DNA from: Cyanobacteria bacterium QS_8_64_29
Lineage (GTDB): Bacteria; Cyanobacteriota; Cyanobacteriia; Cyanobacteriales; Rubidibacteraceae
Reading direction: 5' to 3'
Length of the DNA: 35,956 nucleotides
Assembly: GCA_003022125.1 (NCBI GenBank)
Contig: PXQH01000068.1
Span: 1 to 35,956, forward strand
The first letter of the stretch is position 1. Every line of letters begins with the position of its first letter. The translations under genes and the position numbers were made by a program. Shown here piece by piece: positions 263-15,746 of this stretch. The notes under the pieces are model-generated. The model made no database searches. It was not told where the DNA came from and worked only from the letters and a program-made list of their open reading frames with translations.

Positions 263-604
263 ATGGCATCCCAGCAAAAGCGCGATTTGGATCGGCGACT
301 CCAAGAGCTCGAGCGCGAAGTCAACCAGACCGTTTCGAGCGCAACCCATAAGGTCCGAGAAGCCGAGCCGCTGCAGCGAGCGGCAAGCAATGCCCGCTCG
401 GGGATGGTTCTGCGCGCTCGGGACTGGTTCGAGCAACTTCCCCAACTGGGCAAAATCGCCGTTATTGCCGGCGGCGCCATCATCGGCTTTTCGCTGCTCA
501 AAACCGTTTTGCAGCTGGTGAGCTCGCTGCTGACGCTGGCGCTGGTTGCCGGGGCGCTCTACGTTGGGTACCGGCTGTTTTTAGCGCCCGAGCGCACTGA
601 CTGA
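263..604 (+). CDS. Small hypothetical membrane protein, 113 aa
   Basis: I do not recognise a named family. Residues 1-37 form a charged, probably helical region rich in Arg, Glu and Gln (DRRLQELEREV). They are followed by an amphipathic stretch and two likely adjacent membrane helices at about 65-83 and 84-106, and the protein ends in a short charged tail. The ATG sits directly after GGAG, a spacing rather short for a ribosome binding site. The 3' end overlaps the stop of the convergent methyltransferase gene by 24 bases. Composition and third-position GC look native, so it is probably a real chromosomal gene of unknown role next to the transposon end. Confidence 0.65.
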   Translation: MASQQKRDLDRRLQELEREVNQTVSSATHKVREAEPLQRAASNARSGMVLRARDWFEQLPQLGKIAVIAGGAIIGFSLLKTVLQLVSSLLTLALVAGALYVGYRLFLAPERTD

Positions 605-1822
605 GCGAGTGCGCTGTGGCCGATCGGCTGGCGGAAGGCCGTAGTGCCGGGCGGCCTGCGTGGCCGTCAGCTTGAGCAGCTGCGAATCGCCCAGCGCTAG
701 CGTGCTAGCAGGCATTTGAGAGGATTGCCCGCTGGCGTGCAATAGCTCGCCCCCCACCACTTGGGCCAGCGGTGGAGGAACGGCGTTGCCAATCTGGCGA
801 AAGCCATGCCACTTGGTGGCATGCACTCGGAACCAATCGGGGAACCCATGCAACCGTGCCGCCTCGCGGTTGGTAATGCAGCGCGGCGTATAGGGGTGGA
901 TGGGGCGGGGTGAGGTATGGGCCCCGCGGTTGCTTGCGGTCCCAGCGCGCAGCGTGTTGCAAACGGCGTTGGGGTCGAGCTTGAGAAAGCGGCTGATGCG
1001 CTCGATTTGCCCAAATGGGGTAGCTGCAAAGCGTTTCCGCGATCGCTGCGCGTGCGCCGTGCGGCGGCTTGCGGTTAGCAAGTTGGGGGTGTAGTTGCGC
1101 CGATAGCCGCAGGCTTGGCCCTGCCCTCGAAGCGCGCGCGCATAGGCAGAGGGCGGCCCGAGCTGGGCCTCAACCCAGTCGCGCTCGAGGAGCTCGGGAA
1201 AGCGCTCGACCTCGGGTAAATCCCCAATCGCATCCTGTACGGTTGGAGGTGCCCCAGCTGCTGCAGGGAGGGCCGGACACACCCGGTCGCGGCGCGCGCC
1301 CAGCAAGAACAGGCGCTTGCGGTCTTGGGGAAGGCCATAGTTGCAGGCGTTGAAGATCCCGGCCGTTGGCGTGTAGCCATGGGCGGCAAACTCGACCAGC
1401 AGCTCGTCCAAAAACTGCTGGTGCTTGCCGCGCGCCAAGCCGGGCACGTTTTCAAAGGCAAAGTAGGCCGGTTGCAGCTCGACCACCAAGCGAACGAAGT
1501 GGCGAACGAGCGCGTTGCGCGGGTCGTCGAGGGCACGCTTGCCCATGGGCGAAAAGCCTTGGCAGGGCGCTCCGCCAAAAACAGCCTCGATCTCGCGATC
1601 GCCGATTCCGGTGCGGGCACGGATGGCGGCGCCGCTCAAGCGGGCAACGTCGCTGCAGATGGTTGGGCAGTCGGGAAAGTTAAACGCGTGCGTGGCGCAG
1701 TGGATGGGGTCGGAATCGATGGCAGCCACCACATCGAACCCGGCCTGCTCAAAGCCCAGGCTCATTCCCCCAGCCCCGGCAAACAAGTCGATGCCCAAAG
1801 GCCGATTGCGCTGCTCGCTCAT
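581..1822 (-). CDS. DNA (cytosine-5-)-methyltransferase
   Basis: This 413-residue protein carries the C5-methyltransferase motifs in order: motif I (DLFAGAGGMSLGF, about 12-24, AdoMet binding), motif IV with catalytic Cys87 in GGAPCQGFS, motif VI ENVPG (124-128), motif VIII QDRKR (166-170), a target-recognition region at about 190-300, motif IX around ITNREAARLHGFPDWF, and motif X GNAVPPP (345-351). The ATG at 1822 is chosen because the longer frame to 1909 would run into lnt. No restriction endonuclease is adjacent, so it looks solitary. Cyanobacteria often carry a core enzyme of this kind that methylates CGATCG, the centre of HIP1 (M.Ssp6803I type). The segment FEQAGFDVVAAIDSDPIHCA resembles that group from memory, but the specificity is inferred. 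Confidence 0.93.
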   Translation of the reverse strand: MSEQRNRPLGIDLFAGAGGMSLGFEQAGFDVVAAIDSDPIHCATHAFNFPDCPTICSDVARLSGAAIRARTGIGDREIEAVFGGAPCQGFSPMGKRALDDPRNALVRHFVRLVVELQPAYFAFENVPGLARGKHQQFLDELLVEFAAHGYTPTAGIFNACNYGLPQDRKRLFLLGARRDRVCPALPAAAGAPPTVQDAIGDLPEVERFPELLERDWVEAQLGPPSAYARALRGQGQACGYRRNYTPNLLTASRRTAHAQRSRKRFAATPFGQIERISRFLKLDPNAVCNTLRAGTASNRGAHTSPRPIHPYTPRCITNREAARLHGFPDWFRVHATKWHGFRQIGNAVPPPLAQVVGGELLHASGQSSQMPASTLALGDSQLLKLTATQAARHYGLPPADRPQRTRSVSALGR

Positions 1823-2946
1823 GGCACCTGCAGCCAAGCCGCTCTGGATCCTAGCGCGAGCCGCGCTAGCATCGAACGCGCCGCCCGCCTCGCGCCCAGG
1901 TGACTGCAAGCCCTCGCCTCAACCCCCTACGGTCGCTCCGACGCGCCGCAGTCAATCGCCCGCGTTTGCTGCCCATCGGTACAGCATTGCTCGGTGGCGG
2001 TCTAATGGGCCTGGCCGCTGGCGAGGCCTTTGGGTTGGCCTGGGTGGCGCTCGTCCCGCTCTGGATGGGGGTACGGCAAGCCCAACCGCGCTACCTGCTC
2101 GCCGCGATCGCGTGGGGACTGGCCTATTACGGCATCTCGCTATTTTGGTTGACCGGCCTCCATCCCATGACCTGGATGGGGGTTCCCTGGCTGGCCAGCG
2201 TGGCGATCGCAGCATTTTGCTGGATTGCGGTCACGCTCTGGGGCACTGCCTACGTCGCGGCCTGGGCAGCCGGCATGGCCTGGCTGAGCCGGCGCCTGGG
2301 CGCCGGACATGCGCCTACCTTTGTCCTGGCTGGGACGGCAGGCTGGTGCGCCTTGGAGCTGCTGCGGAGCGCCACACCGCTGCACTGGAGCTATCTGGGG
2401 CTGACGCAAAGCCCCCACAATTTGGCCGTACTGCAACTGGCCCAGCTCGCCGGGCCAACAGCCGTCACGGCGGTGTTGGTTGCCACCAACGGCTTGCTAG
2501 CCGAGGCCATCCTGGCTCGCTGGGGGCCGCGCTCGCCCGGCCCGATCCCGCTGGCAGGGGCTGCCCTGGCCGTGCTGTTGGGGGGGCACGGCTTGGGATG
2601 GGGGATGCTGGCGCGCCCGCTGGCATCCGCGCAAGCCGAGCCGTTGCAAGTGGGCATCGTTCAGGGCAACGTGCCCAACGAGATCAAGCTCAAGGGCCGC
2701 GGTCGGCGCCAAGCGATCGCGCGCTACACCCGCGGCTACCGGCAACTAACGGCAGCTGGCGCTGATGCCGTTCTTACCCCCGAGACGGCCCTGCCGTTGG
2801 CATGGCCGCAATACGCCCGCCGCCGCGAGCAGTTTTATCGGGCTGTGGTGGCAGCCGAGGTGCCTGCCTGGCTGGGAGCATTCGGCGCCGAAGGGCAAAC
2901 CAACAGCCTGTTTGCCCTCACCGGCGAGGGCCAAACCCGCGATCGC
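1039..2946. repeat. Cluster of HIP1 octamers (GCGATCGC)
   Basis: GCGATCGC occurs at 1039-1046, 1595-1602, 2104-2111, 2203-2210, 2713-2720 and 2939-2946, and continues to appear throughout the window. At about 65% GC a given copy of this octamer would be expected roughly once per 28 kb by chance, so six in 3 kb is strong enrichment. HIP1 is the well-known hyper-abundant palindrome of cyanobacterial genomes. Here the copies lie inside coding sequence. Confidence 0.95.
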
Positions 2947-10459: not shown

Positions 10460-11860
10460 CTACCCGATATCGCTAGCCATAACGCGCTCGACGGCCCGAG
10501 ACGCACTGGCGCGGAACTCGTCAACATCCACGCGCGCTAGCAAAACAACCGCCACCAGCATCCCAAAGATTTGAATCCCAAAGACGAAGCTGTAAGCCAG
10601 TTGTTCGCCGCCAAACAGCAAGCGCCCAACATCCAACAGGGTCCCGCCCAAAAACGTTGCCGACGCCTGACCCAGGGCCTGCGCCAGGCCCCACATGCCG
10701 GTAAAAATGCCAGCGGTCTCGGCAGTAGTCAGATCCAGCATCAGCCCCAGCGAGCCGCTGGTCGCTACCCCCAACCCCAACCCGAATATAAAGACCGCGC
10801 CTTTAAGCACTGCCGGCGCGCCGGCAAAACCAGAAGCGATTAACAAGGCAAAGCACCCAGTCAGCAGCAGGCACCCCAGTCGCGCCGTTCGTTGCTTGCC
10901 CAGCCGCGGCACGATCGCAAAACCGGTTAGCGTCAGGCTAATAATGCTGCCGACAGCATAAAAGATGTTGAGCCGCGTGCTCTGCGAGACGCTCATGCCA
11001 AAGACTTCGCCAGCATAGGGCTCTAGCACGGGCTGCTGCAGGAACAGCCCCACAATCAAAACCAGCAGATAGATAAAGAAAAACCCCGTCTGGCGGTTGG
11101 CGCGCAGGATGCGGATGGCATCCCGCAAGGTAACCTTGTTGCCGCGCTGGGCCAGGCGAGAGCGCTGCCAGTAGCGCGAGTACTTGCGCTCGATGCCCAA
11201 CGTCCCCACAAACGTCATGGCAACGACCGCAGCCGGGACGATGGTAAAGAGTCGGTTGAGATAGGGCTGGAGGTTGGTATCGTTCATGCCCTCCAGCAGG
11301 CTGCTGCTAAAGCCGGCGCCCACCCCAATGCCAACTAGCAGCAGCGACCAGACAATGCCAATAACCTTGGAGCGCTCGCTCTCTTCAGTGACATCGACCA
11401 GCAGGGCAAAAAACGGCGTCGCCGTCGCGCTAATGCCCAGCCCGTAGAGGGCAAAGGTGAGCGCAAACAGCGCAATCCAAGCATAGGTGGGAAACGTCCA
11501 CCCGGCACTCTCAACGCTGGCATTGAGCTGCAAGACCACTTGCAGGCCCACAAAGGCCAAAACGGCGAAAGCCAGCGCGCCGCCCCAAATGTAGCCCGTG
11601 CGGTTGTAGGGGCCAATGGCATAGGCATCCGAGAGCTGCCCGAACCACACCCGGGCTGGGGCCACGAACTGGTACATCGCCAGCGAACCGCCCACGATGG
11701 TCGCAGGGATGGCCAACTCGTCGATGGCAACGCGGTTGAGCACGCTCAAGGTGAGGATGGACATGATGCCCAATCCCATCTGCACCAATCCCAGGCGCAC
11801 CATAGTCACGGGATTGATGTTGGGCGGCGACGTTGCGTTGGATGCCGATTCCTGCGCCAT
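10460..11860 (-). CDS. PucC/BCD-family MFS transporter
   Basis: The 466-residue protein has about twelve hydrophobic segments and the opening typical of the PucC (bacteriochlorophyll delivery) family, INPVTMVRLGLVQMGLG followed by NRVAIDELAIPA and GQLSDAY. In purple bacteria PucC and LhaA help assemble light-harvesting complexes. Cyanobacteria carry one or two relatives of unproven role, perhaps chlorophyll-protein assembly or export. The ATG at 11860 is the only start ahead of the conserved N-terminus. The gene diverges from the IMPase-family gene with 152 bases between starts, and it leads the transcription unit that includes the aldo/keto reductase. Confidence 0.9.
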   Translation of the reverse strand: MAQESASNATSPPNINPVTMVRLGLVQMGLGIMSILTLSVLNRVAIDELAIPATIVGGSLAMYQFVAPARVWFGQLSDAYAIGPYNRTGYIWGGALAFAVLAFVGLQVVLQLNASVESAGWTFPTYAWIALFALTFALYGLGISATATPFFALLVDVTEESERSKVIGIVWSLLLVGIGVGAGFSSSLLEGMNDTNLQPYLNRLFTIVPAAVVAMTFVGTLGIERKYSRYWQRSRLAQRGNKVTLRDAIRILRANRQTGFFFIYLLVLIVGLFLQQPVLEPYAGEVFGMSVSQSTRLNIFYAVGSIISLTLTGFAIVPRLGKQRTARLGCLLLTGCFALLIASGFAGAPAVLKGAVFIFGLGLGVATSGSLGLMLDLTTAETAGIFTGMWGLAQALGQASATFLGGTLLDVGRLLFGGEQLAYSFVFGIQIFGMLVAVVLLARVDVDEFRASASRAVERVMASDIG

Positions 11861-12012
11861 GCCCGGTGTCCTTGCCTCACTGTCGGCCCCGCCCGTCCAA
11901 GCTAACCCAAGCCCAGCATCCGTGCCGCGCGCCGGCGTCTGAGCTGGGACCCCTCACCACCGTGCTAGGTTTGGACCGCTTGAGGCCGCTGGCAATTCAA
12001 AAGACTACCCCC

Positions 12013-12843
12013 ATGGATGCATTCTGGAACGGCGTGCTCGCGTTCGCGCGCACCACCACCGACCGGGTCGGCCGGCAGTTGCTGGCCGATTTCGGTACGG
12101 TGCAGGCCGCGCAAAAAACGGATGGCTCGCTGGTGACCCAGGCGGATCGGTGGGCGGACGAGCAACTGCAAGCTGCGATCGCGCAGCGCTTTCCCGATCA
12201 CGGCATCCTGAGCGAGGAAGCGCAGCACACCTTCCCCAATCGGGATTGGTGCTGGGCGATCGATCCGGTGGATGGCACGACCAATTTCACGCGCGGCATC
12301 CCGATCTGGGGCATCTCGATGGGACTGCTCTATCGCGGCGTACCCGTGTTTGGCTTGGTGCACTTTCCCGGGTTGGGGCAAACCTTCCATGGCTTTTGGT
12401 ACGGCGATTCGGGCCTGTCGGGGCCAACCGGTGCCTTCTGCAACGACCATCCCATTCGCACCAGCGCGGATGCCCCCAGCAGCAACCACTTGTTCAACCT
12501 GTGCGCTCGCAGCACGAGCCTGGCCGCGCAACCGTTCCCGTGCAAGCTGCGCATGGTAGGCGTTTGCACCTACAGCTTTTTGTTGGTCGCCACCGGGGCC
12601 GCTCTAGGGGCCGAAGAAGCGACTCCCAAGGTGTGGGATCTGGCAGCGGTCTGGCCCATCCTGCAAGCGGCTGGCGGGTCCTCCCTCCCGCTAACCCCCG
12701 AGGCGATTTTTCCGCTGGTGGTGGGTCAGGACTACGGCCAAACCTCCTATCCCAGCTTGGTCGTGGGCCGCGCCGATTTGGTGCCCGTCTTTCGGCCGCT
12801 GGTGGCTGAGATAGCTGATCGGGTGCTGGCAGCTCAGCAGTAG
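12013..12843 (+). CDS. Inositol monophosphatase family protein
   Basis: This is a Mg-dependent, Li-sensitive-type phosphatase fold protein of 276 residues. Metal-binding motifs are intact: SEE (67-69), DPVDGTTNF (84-92), and WDLAAVWPI (208-216, second metal-site Asp). Substrates in this family include inositol phosphates, histidinol phosphate, fructose-1,6-bisphosphate and PAP, and the sequence does not decide between them. The ATG at 12013 gives the usual N-terminus; the open frame extends upstream without family similarity. It ends 26 bases before the PlsY-PPDK-like fusion gene on the same strand, so the two are probably co-transcribed. Confidence 0.93.
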   Translation: MDAFWNGVLAFARTTTDRVGRQLLADFGTVQAAQKTDGSLVTQADRWADEQLQAAIAQRFPDHGILSEEAQHTFPNRDWCWAIDPVDGTTNFTRGIPIWGISMGLLYRGVPVFGLVHFPGLGQTFHGFWYGDSGLSGPTGAFCNDHPIRTSADAPSSNHLFNLCARSTSLAAQPFPCKLRMVGVCTYSFLLVATGAALGAEEATPKVWDLAAVWPILQAAGGSSLPLTPEAIFPLVVGQDYGQTSYPSLVVGRADLVPVFRPLVAEIADRVLAAQQ

Positions 12844-12869: not shown

Positions 12870-15746
12870 ATGACGCAGCTTTGGGGAGCGCTGCTGGTTT
12901 TGGTGCTCTGTCCGCTGCTGGGCGGCTTGCCGCTGGTTGAAGGGATCGCGCGCCTGCTGGCCGGCCGCCGCCTAAGCCAGCTGGGCACTGGCAATATCTC
13001 GGTCTCGGCGGCGTTCTACCACGGCGGCACGGTGGTGGGCGTGCTGGCCGTGCTGGCCGAAGCGCTCAAAGGCGTGCTGGCCGTGCTGCTAGCGCGCGCT
13101 TTTTTCCCCACCGATCCTGCCTGGGAGCTCATCGCGCTAATTGCACTGGTCCTGGGCCGTTATTGGGGGGGCAAAGGGGCTGGCGCCACCAATGTTACCT
13201 GGGGGGTGGTCGTTCACGACTGGGTGGCAGCGGCGCTGATTGCGCTCATTGGCGGCATTAGCTTGACCGTCTTGCGCGATCGCCGCTCGGCTCAGTGGGG
13301 CGTTTCGATCCTCATGCCGCTGGTTTTGGGCCTGCGCCATACGGACGAGCCGGGCCGATTCATGGCTGCGGTCGTCCTATCGGTGCTGCTGGGGTGGCTG
13401 TTTCGCCGCATGCCTGACGATCTGGACTTGTCGGGACGGGGCAGTCAGAGCTCGGCGCGCGTGTTTCGTTTTTTCCGCGGCGATCGCGCCGTCCGCTCGC
13501 TGGATGAGCCGCTGGCGGCCGAGCGCGCCGGCGGCAAGGCCGCCACGCTATCGCAACTCAAGCGCTGGGGCTATCCCGTCCCCGCTGGCTGGGTGCTGCC
13601 GCCCGGCGACGACCCGCTGCCGCTGGTGCAGTCGCTGGCCCCATCCGAGGAGGCGCCGCTGATCGCGCGCTCCTCGGCCGTTGGCGAAGATAGCGAGACC
13701 GCCTCGGCCGCCGGTCAGTACCAAAGCGTTTCCCACATTGCCTCGCGCGAGGCCCTGCAAGATGCCATCCGGCGCTGTCAGGCCTCCTACGAAGCGGCCG
13801 GCGCCACGCGCTACCGCCGCGATCGCGGCCAAGCCGATGCCGCCATGGCCGTGCTGGTGCAGCGGCAGGTGCGGGGCCGCTTCTCGGGAGTGGCTTTTAG
13901 CCGCGATCCGGTCGAGCCAGGCGAAGCTGTCCTCGTGGAAGGCTTGCCGGGCGAGGCCGCCCCCATTGTCTCGGGGCAAGCAACGCCGCAGCAGTACCGC
14001 GTCAGCTGGCCTGCCCAGGGCGAGCCGCAGATAGAGGGCAGCGGCGATTTACCCGCCGATTTGGTGGCTGAAGTCGCTCGCCTGGCGCGCGAGCTCGAGC
14101 GCCGCTACCGCGGCGTGCCCCAAGACCTGGAGTGGACCCACGACGGGGAGCAACTGTGGCTGCTGCAAGCGCGCCCCATTGCCACCCTGCAACCCATTTG
14201 GACGCGCAAAATTGCGGCCGAGGTCATCCCAGGGCTGATCCCGCCGCTGACGTGGTCGATCAACCAGCCCTTGACCTGCGGCGTGTGGGCCAAGCTCTTT
14301 CGCCTGGTGCTGGGCAAGCGCGCGCAGGGGCTGGATTTTGACCGGACGGCGGCGCTCCACTACGGGCGGGCGTATTTCAATGCCACCTTACTGGGGCAGA
14401 TTTTTGGGCGCATGGGCTTGCCCGAGCAGAGCTTGGGCTTTTTGACCCAAGGGAAGCGCATGGGCCGGCCGCCACTGGGCACAACGTTGCGCAACCTACC
14501 GGGATTGTTGCGCTTGCTGGGGCGGGAGCTGCGCCTGGCCCGCGACTTTCGCGTTTCGGATCGCAAGCAGTTGCAACCCACGCTGGCACAGCTGGCGCGC
14601 GAGCCGCCAACCGAGCTAGCCCCTGTAACCGTACTCGAGCGCACCGACACCATCCTGACCGCCCTTGAGGAAGCGACCTACTACAGCATCCTGGCGCCGC
14701 TTAGCCTATCGCTGCGCCAAGCCCTGCTGCGAGTGACTGACAGCGAGCTCGATAGCAGCCGGCTGCCCGAGGTGGCCTCGCTGCGATCACTGGCCGAGAT
14801 TGCCGCCGAGGCGCGCGTGCTGGTTTCCAACCGGGTGCTGCCGCGCGAGGACAGCGAGGCGCTCTTTGAGATCCTAGGGGAAACCCCAGCAGGCCGGCGC
14901 GTCCGGGCGCGCTTTCAGGACTGGCTGGCCCGCTACGGCTACCTCAGCGAAGCCGCCACGGACATCTCGGTCCCGCGCTGGCAGGACAACCCAGAACCGG
15001 TGCGAGCGCTGTTCGTCCGCTGGGCCCGCGGCCAGCAGGATGCCGGCCGAGTTGGCGATCAGGGGCGCCGCCGGCAGTCCCGGCGCGCGCGCTGGGTGCA
15101 GCAGCGCCTGGATCTCAAAGCTCGCACTGCCGAGCGCTACGCTCAGCTGCTAGCGCAACTGCGCTGGCACGTTTTGGCCCTAGAGCAGGCAGGCCTGCAA
15201 GCCGGTTGGCTGTCGCAACCGGGGGATGCCTTCCTGTTGCAAGTGGGCGAGCTCCGCCATGCCATTCGCGAGCCCCAGACAACATTCGAGCCACCGCTGC
15301 AGCAGCGGGCGCAGCAGCGGCGAGCGCAGCTGGAGCGCTACCGGCAGCTCCCGCGCGTCCCCGCAATTGTCTACGGCAACGACCCGCCGCCGGAGGCCCT
15401 AACGGGCGAGCTGCCTGCCCCTACGGGACAGCTGCAGGGGCTGGGCGTCAGCCCCGGCTGGGCCCAAGGGCGCGTCGCCATCCGCCACCAGCTCCCGGCC
15501 GAGGCCGACATCGACGGCGACACCATCCTGGTGGTGCCCTACACCGATGCGGGTTGGGTGCCGCTGCTGGCGCGGGCAGGGGGCCTGGTTGCCGAGGTGG
15601 GCGGGCGCCTCTCGCACGGGGCAATTGTCGCCCGCGAGTGCGGCATCCCGGCTGTGGTCGCGCTCGAGAACGCCACGCAGCTGCTGCGCGAGGGCGAGCG
15701 CGTGCGCATTGATGGGCGCTCGGGCACGCTGGAGCGCGATGCGTGA
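12870..15746 (+). CDS. PlsY-like membrane domain fused to PPDK/rifampin-phosphotransferase-like enzyme, 958 aa
   Basis: Residues 1-183 form about six membrane helices with features of the acyl-phosphate:glycerol-3-phosphate acyltransferase PlsY. GTGN (39-42) corresponds to the GSGN motif and GGKGAGATN (100-108) to the GGKG motif, but the usual GATN after the first motif is SVSA, so activity is uncertain. Residues about 205-440 are a PPDK-type ATP-grasp domain: GGKAATLSQL (221-230), ARSSAVGEDS (266-275), SGVAFSRDP (339-347) and DLEWTHDGEQLWLLQARPI (419-437). Residues 440-855 are a helical middle region. Residues 858-957 are the swivelling phosphohistidine domain, with His916 in GGRLSHGAIVARE. 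The PEP/pyruvate barrel of PPDK and PEP synthase is absent, so the soluble part resembles rifampin phosphotransferase. Substrate unknown. The gene converges on the next one with only 8 bases between. Confidence 0.88.
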   Translation: MTQLWGALLVLVLCPLLGGLPLVEGIARLLAGRRLSQLGTGNISVSAAFYHGGTVVGVLAVLAEALKGVLAVLLARAFFPTDPAWELIALIALVLGRYWGGKGAGATNVTWGVVVHDWVAAALIALIGGISLTVLRDRRSAQWGVSILMPLVLGLRHTDEPGRFMAAVVLSVLLGWLFRRMPDDLDLSGRGSQSSARVFRFFRGDRAVRSLDEPLAAERAGGKAATLSQLKRWGYPVPAGWVLPPGDDPLPLVQSLAPSEEAPLIARSSAVGEDSETASAAGQYQSVSHIASREALQDAIRRCQASYEAAGATRYRRDRGQADAAMAVLVQRQVRGRFSGVAFSRDPVEPGEAVLVEGLPGEAAPIVSGQATPQQYRVSWPAQGEPQIEGSGDLPADLVAEVARLARELERRYRGVPQDLEWTHDGEQLWLLQARPIATLQPIWTRKIAAEVIPGLIPPLTWSINQPLTCGVWAKLFRLVLGKRAQGLDFDRTAALHYGRAYFNATLLGQIFGRMGLPEQSLGFLTQGKRMGRPPLGTTLRNLPGLLRLLGRELRLARDFRVSDRKQLQPTLAQLAREPPTELAPVTVLERTDTILTALEEATYYSILAPLSLSLRQALLRVTDSELDSSRLPEVASLRSLAEIAAEARVLVSNRVLPREDSEALFEILGETPAGRRVRARFQDWLARYGYLSEAATDISVPRWQDNPEPVRALFVRWARGQQDAGRVGDQGRRRQSRRARWVQQRLDLKARTAERYAQLLAQLRWHVLALEQAGLQAGWLSQPGDAFLLQVGELRHAIREPQTTFEPPLQQRAQQRRAQLERYRQLPRVPAIVYGNDPPPEALTGELPAPTGQLQGLGVSPGWAQGRVAIRHQLPAEADIDGDTILVVPYTDAGWVPLLARAGGLVAEVGGRLSHGAIVARECGIPAVVALENATQLLREGERVRIDGRSGTLERDA

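Follow-up and report, generated by a model that had tools for sequence, protein, structure and literature searches.

A cyanobacterial fusion of a PlsY-fold membrane domain with a rifampin phosphotransferase-like dikinase module, possibly acting on membrane-soluble compounds

The window analysed here, a stretch of 35,956 nucleotides of cyanobacterial DNA, harbours an intact open reading frame for a protein of 958 amino acids, in which a PlsY-like membrane domain is followed by an ATP-grasp domain, a helical middle part and a swivelling phosphohistidine domain (Table 1). This layout had been read from the sequence alone in the original prediction, and the Pfam and fold matches agree with it. The membrane part is matched by PF02660 (G3P_acyltransf) at residues 14-179 with 61 bits against a gathering cut-off of 24, and the C-terminal part by PF00391 (PEP-utilizers) at residues 883-952 with 82 bits against a cut-off of 23, in agreement with the expected swivelling domain carrying His916. 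PF01326 (PPDK_N) scores 128 bits (cut-off 27) in two stretches, the best of which covers residues 259-381; together with the fold match to rifampin phosphotransferase (RPH) described below, this bears out the claim of a full PPDK-type ATP-grasp domain. As predicted, no PEP/pyruvate-barrel family was found among the Pfam matches of the 958-aa protein, and residues 441-850 have the fold of the RPH acceptor domain. An inositol-monophosphatase-like gene, recognised by eye at positions 11833-12843 (+) of the window, ends 26 bases upstream of the fusion gene, shares its strand and may be co-transcribed with it here; the pairing did not surface as conserved among relatives. At 581-1909 (-), the window contains a frame which by eye resembles a DNA cytosine methyltransferase (PCQGFS motif).

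Table 1. Features of the fusion gene and of its product (positions in the window).
Feature	Position	Strand	Basis or remark
Whole fusion gene, 958 aa	12870..15746	+	ATG to stop, no internal stop; homologues
PlsY-fold membrane domain, residues 1-180	12870..13409	+	PF02660; 5xj7 match
Altered PlsY motif 1, residues 39-53 (GTGNISVSAAFYHGG)	12984..13028	+	PlsY Arg45 = Tyr50
Altered PlsY motif 2, residues 96-112 (GRYWGGKGAGATNVTWG)	13155..13205	+	His92 -> Arg97, Lys104 -> Gly105
Linker past last membrane helix, residues 181-205	13410..13484	+	conserved PDDLDL ... FFRGD
PPDK/RPH-type ATP-grasp domain, residues 206-440	13485..14189	+	PF01326, conservation, fold
Key residues of the ATP-grasp domain			Lys223, Arg267, Glu357, Glu421, Gln433, Arg435
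Helical acceptor domain, residues 441-850	14190..15419	+	fold = rifampin-binding domain of RPH
Swivelling phosphohistidine domain, residues 853-955	15426..15734	+	PF00391, fold
Codon of phosphate-carrying His916	15615..15617	+	aligned with catalytic His of RPH

The AlphaFold model of the fusion (input of 58 sequences) has a mean pLDDT of 84.8, a fold model alone being no proof of activity. Residues 4-204 of the model superpose on PlsY 5xj7 (Z 18.6, 182 aligned residues, 3.1 A) over the whole seven-helix PlsY fold, which corrects the six helices originally proposed. Residues 206-958 match RPH 5hv1 with a Z of 25.5 over 662 residues and an rmsd of 16 A, as expected from a differing orientation of the domains; hence the middle domain was also folded alone. 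In the comparison with the rifampin-binding domain of RPH, which the original prediction had proposed, it then matched with a Z of 18.5 (338 aligned residues, 4.3 A), RPH being the sole good structural match and the next unrelated chain reaching a Z of 9.2 only. The sequence profile of the middle domain likewise finds RPH (E 2.7e-5) and nothing else significant. Since the AlphaFold/PDB matches and the middle-domain profile agree, the predicted anatomy, the comparison with RPH included, is right at the level of the model.

The kinase half retains the residues that matter in RPH. Of the 193 homologues, 189-193 keep each of Lys223, Arg267, Glu357, Glu421, Gln433, Arg435 and His916 (189 in the case of His916), and Lys223, Arg267 and His916 align with RPH Lys22, Arg117 and His825, of which the first two are required for phosphate transfer and the last bears the phosphate (PMC4844700). 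An invariant stretch at the beginning of the acceptor domain, WTRKIAAEVIPGxIxPLTWSINxPL, corresponds in the alignment to a rifampin-contacting part of RPH. Both proteins (5HV1 and 5FBS for RPH; PMC4844700) share the order of ATP-grasp, helical acceptor and C-terminal swivelling His domain, the ATP-site residues and the acceptor-domain fold. The fusion, however, adds the N-terminal seven-helix membrane domain, its acceptor domain is only about 15% identical, and the Gln336-Gln337 pair of RPH, which contacts rifamycin and phosphate, corresponds in the profile alignment to Ala450-Glu451, while the RPH acceptor pair Arg666-Glu667 falls in a helix of low-confidence alignment to the fusion. The NCBIfam equivalog of RPH gives 210 bits, with its cut-off at 999. 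Judged by its anatomy, the fusion is not an RPH but would work like one. PEP synthase and pyruvate phosphate dikinase have the ATP-grasp and phosphohistidine domains in common with the fusion, which, in contrast to them, has no PEP/pyruvate barrel and carries its His domain at the C-terminus. The prodigiosin ligases PigC/RedH and the two-component dikinases, for example HpeI, belong to the ATP-grasp/His superfamily too, their acceptor parts being divergent; the fusion stays far below the equivalog cut-offs (196 of 1300 bits for PigC, 195 of 1350 for RedH), and to our knowledge neither PigC/RedH nor the HpeI-type dikinases possess a membrane domain.

In PlsY, the phosphate of glycerol-3-phosphate (G3P) is held by Ser35, Arg45, Lys104 and Asn180, its 2-OH by Ser142 and His177, and the acyl-phosphate by Thr41 and His92 together with the motif 2 loop; the mutation R45K abolishes more than 90% of the activity, and S35T leaves 17% (PMC5700162). 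The profile of the membrane domain matched Aquifex PlsY (5xj5) with a full-sequence E of 0.013, a similarity that is weak by sequence and backed by the fold match. In this alignment three residues of the G3P clamp are replaced (Ser35 by Thr40, Arg45 by Tyr50, Lys104 by Gly105), as are the acyl-phosphate contacts Thr41 (Ser46) and His92 (Arg97), so that the alteration of acyltransferase motif 2 noted originally holds against a solved PlsY and extends to the clamp; the register of motif 1 is unchanged in the profile comparison with cyanobacterial PlsY. The alignment ends just before motif 3 (His177, Asn180), and residues 176-190 contain no conserved His or Asn. A by-eye reading of motif 3 at His157/Glu160, with Lys104 equated to Lys102, was dropped, since the 5xj5 alignment sets Lys104 against Gly105 and gives that placement of motif 3 no support. 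The fusion family has strongly conserved loop signatures of its own, GTGNxxVSAAFYHGG and GRYWxGKGAGTTNVVWG, in which Phe49 (187/193 homologues), Tyr50, His51, Arg97 (191/193), Gly103, Gly105, Thr107, Asn108 (187/193) and Trp111 are near-invariant. The PlsY-like loops thus appear, from their conservation, to be re-tooled and not lost. With the G3P clamp dismantled, a role as G3P acyltransferase is unlikely. The score with the PlsY equivalog TIGR00023 is 29.1 bits against a cut-off of 137.2, and the label "glycerol-3-phosphate acyltransferase" is probably wrong for this protein. What is left in common with PlsY (5XJ5-5XJ9; PMC5700162) is the membrane-domain fold and the Gly-rich motif 1 and 2 loops, whereas the substitutions listed above and the attached 750-residue kinase set the fusion apart.

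The suggestion that the fusion may be conserved in cyanobacteria is borne out by a search for the full-length architecture: relatives at E <= 1e-60 are present in 105 of the 386 cyanobacterial genomes sampled, and most matches are full-length. The best 80 loci listed from 85,000 species, as named contigs, are all cyanobacterial (51-60% identity in the best segment, essentially over the whole length), none of them showing the full fusion outside cyanobacteria; the named carriers include Nostoc, Scytonema, Fischerella, Calothrix, Leptolyngbya, Moorena, Oscillatoria and Halothece. Among the 386 genomes the fusion is missing from many small-genome groups, yet the window's own genome, small as it is (2.2 Mb, 99.95% complete), keeps it. 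Plasmid-borne relatives match the kinase half only, no plasmid location covering 80% of the protein. A frameshift or assembly joint near residues 185-205 is excluded, since the frame is continuous across residues 180-211 in full-length homologues and Asp183, Asp184 and Leu211 are invariant in the alignment used. The break between the domains in genome G249 (L163 4276-4281), at first sight a natural two-gene form, is interpreted as a frameshift or an error in sequencing. No description of the fusion and no characterised homologue was found in the open-access literature searched, in line with its being called functionally undescribed. Hence none of the three circumstances named beforehand as speaking against the fusion (absence from relatives, a joint at 185-205, a characterised homologue) was encountered. 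Each domain family is known, and the combination appears to be undescribed. The neighbourhood is not conserved: of 41 loci, only 5-6 share even the commonest neighbour families, which lie now on one side and now on the other. No gene is conserved nearby that would hint at a substrate or decide between the readings weighed below.

A canonical plsY was looked for in the window's own genome and found there as a separate gene (G000:C45:8798-9355, 161 bits as against 66 bits for the fusion). In the class as a whole, PF02660 is matched in 144 of 145 genomes, nearly all with a single strong canonical copy, the weaker copies in the list sitting in frames of about 965-1081 aa; canonical plsY is present in all but a few of the 145 genomes. 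One genome, G104 (99% complete, in a single contig), lacks canonical plsY but carries plsX and the fusion, while its congener G266 has plsY. Compared with L220, some 1 Mb separates the exbBD side from the ileS side in G104 (L232, L281), and the intervening stretch with plsY and its neighbouring genes was not found there. The gap may reflect either a genuine loss or a loss in the assembly, and is therefore treated as a lead only.

Decay of the two sites was surveyed in 193 sequences of at least 550 aa, L163 (frameshift) and L172 (contig end) being left out as fragments, and the seven kinase residues were scored against 18 PlsY-like loop positions. In 184 sequences all seven kinase residues are present and the loops deviate at no more than two positions. 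Kinase residues are lost in six sequences, and all six show 7 to 15 loop deviations: L066, L067 and L166 (His916 to Gln, Lys223 to Asp/Gly), L175 (His916 to Gln), L064 (Arg435 to Gln, with motif 1 cleanly deleted) and L165 (Gln433 to His, with the entire middle domain absent). L174 keeps the seven kinase residues, yet its loops are decayed and its ATP and His loops altered. On a tree built without these columns the decayed state requires 4 changes, of which at least 3 are forced by strong branches; about 4 separate lineages have decayed, and the independent pairs differing in both sites all go the same way. A sign test on these pairs gives p 0.25 and, as there are only 3-4 of them, cannot reach significance. 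The loops being decayed where the kinase is lost and kept where it is intact, the pattern argues that the membrane site may serve the kinase instead of being just an anchor, and that the PlsY-like loops have no function likely to outlive the kinase; it counts against a stand-alone acyltransferase as well. One must bear in mind that joint decay by itself is no proof of both sites acting on one molecule, and would be expected, too, from general relaxation in an enzyme that is dying out.

The architecture, conservation, folds, kinase residues, loss of the G3P clamp and joint decay seen in sequence and model are consistent with a membrane-embedded RPH-like dikinase acting through phospho-His916 on a membrane-soluble compound, a lipid or lipid-phosphate, a reading which we hold at roughly even confidence. 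The ATP-grasp domain would bind ATP, the beta-phosphate of which would be taken by His916 of the swivel domain with release of AMP and Pi; the swivel would then travel to the helical acceptor domain; there, in the direction that we infer, the phosphate would pass to a hydrophobic and possibly lipid acceptor coming from, or returning to, the membrane. The PlsY-like domain would not acylate G3P; its conserved loops may hold a phosphate-bearing or to-be-phosphorylated lipid at the acyl-phosphate site of PlsY, so that membrane and kinase sites would form one pathway.

The chief rival, in our estimate a rather doubtful one, is a self-contained acyl-phosphate machine: starting from a free fatty acid or some other acid, the kinase half would make an acyl-phosphate, whose acyl group the PlsY-like half would pass on to an acceptor different from G3P. 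In its favour, acyl-phosphate is what enzymes of the PlsY class use, both sites of the fusion are retained or lost together, and the acyl-phosphate side (the motif 2 loop, and Thr41 as Ser46) is the better kept one with regard to the contacts described for PlsY (PMC5700162); however, the acyl-phosphate-binding His92 has become Arg97, no site for the acceptor is evident, and PlsX, present for instance in the two genomes tested, already makes acyl-phosphate in cyanobacteria. As to the chemistry, transfer from phosphohistidine to acyl-phosphate is known in succinyl-CoA synthetases. More broadly, and no less tentatively, one may think of a two-reaction enzyme, in which an acyl-phosphate or other activated lipid phosphate is made with ATP and used by the re-tooled PlsY half on a non-G3P acceptor.

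That the PlsY-like part is a membrane anchor only, the kinase working alone, seems improbable: the domain is clearly membranous and fusions often use borrowed anchors, but an anchor does not need near-invariant loops, and these are lost just where the kinase is lost. A shade less probable still is a membrane sensor or scaffold with catalysis secondary, for which one could quote the catalytically degraded forms that several genomes still retain as uninterrupted frames of about 900-960 aa, and against which the conservation of His916, equalled by that of the ATP-site residues, has to be set. Least probable of all these readings is a second true G3P acyltransferase with a kinase half that is regulatory or makes a local substrate. 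The PlsY fold, the PF02660 score above cut-off and the gene content of G104 favour it, but three of the four phosphate-clamp residues are replaced at aligned positions, no conserved His/Asn occurs where motif 3 would fall, TIGR00023 scores only 29 against 137, and nearly all carriers also have canonical plsY; the gap in G104, moreover, coincides with a rearrangement losing the neighbours too.

Roughly one in four of the sampled cyanobacterial genomes encodes the protein, those of the filamentous Nostoc and Fischerella among them, and a domain search scores it as a glycerol-3-phosphate acyltransferase despite the lost G3P site; from the sequences, its active-site changes seem to set it apart from both parents. 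The discoverers of RPH assigned the RPH group to a large, unexplored set of enzymes (PMC4844700). Were the preferred reading, a lipid-directed dikinase, true, the RPH group would be extended to membrane substrates, a non-acyltransferase use of the PlsY fold would be demonstrated and the domain-based label corrected; the two-reaction reading would imply an undescribed cyanobacterial route of lipid building or lipid salvage in one polypeptide. The decayed lineages, as natural mutants, offer a way to test whether the two sites are functionally linked. Three decayed but full-length forms, L066 7936-10638, L067 8455-11157 and L166 3411-6155, come from one genus, have motif 1 deleted and show about 29% identity; still open frames of 900-914 aa, they are, to judge by their sequences, a retained pseudoenzyme. 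L165 3329-5104 (-) is a second copy in genome G207, a protein of 591 aa with PlsY-like, ATP-grasp and His domains and decayed PlsY motifs.
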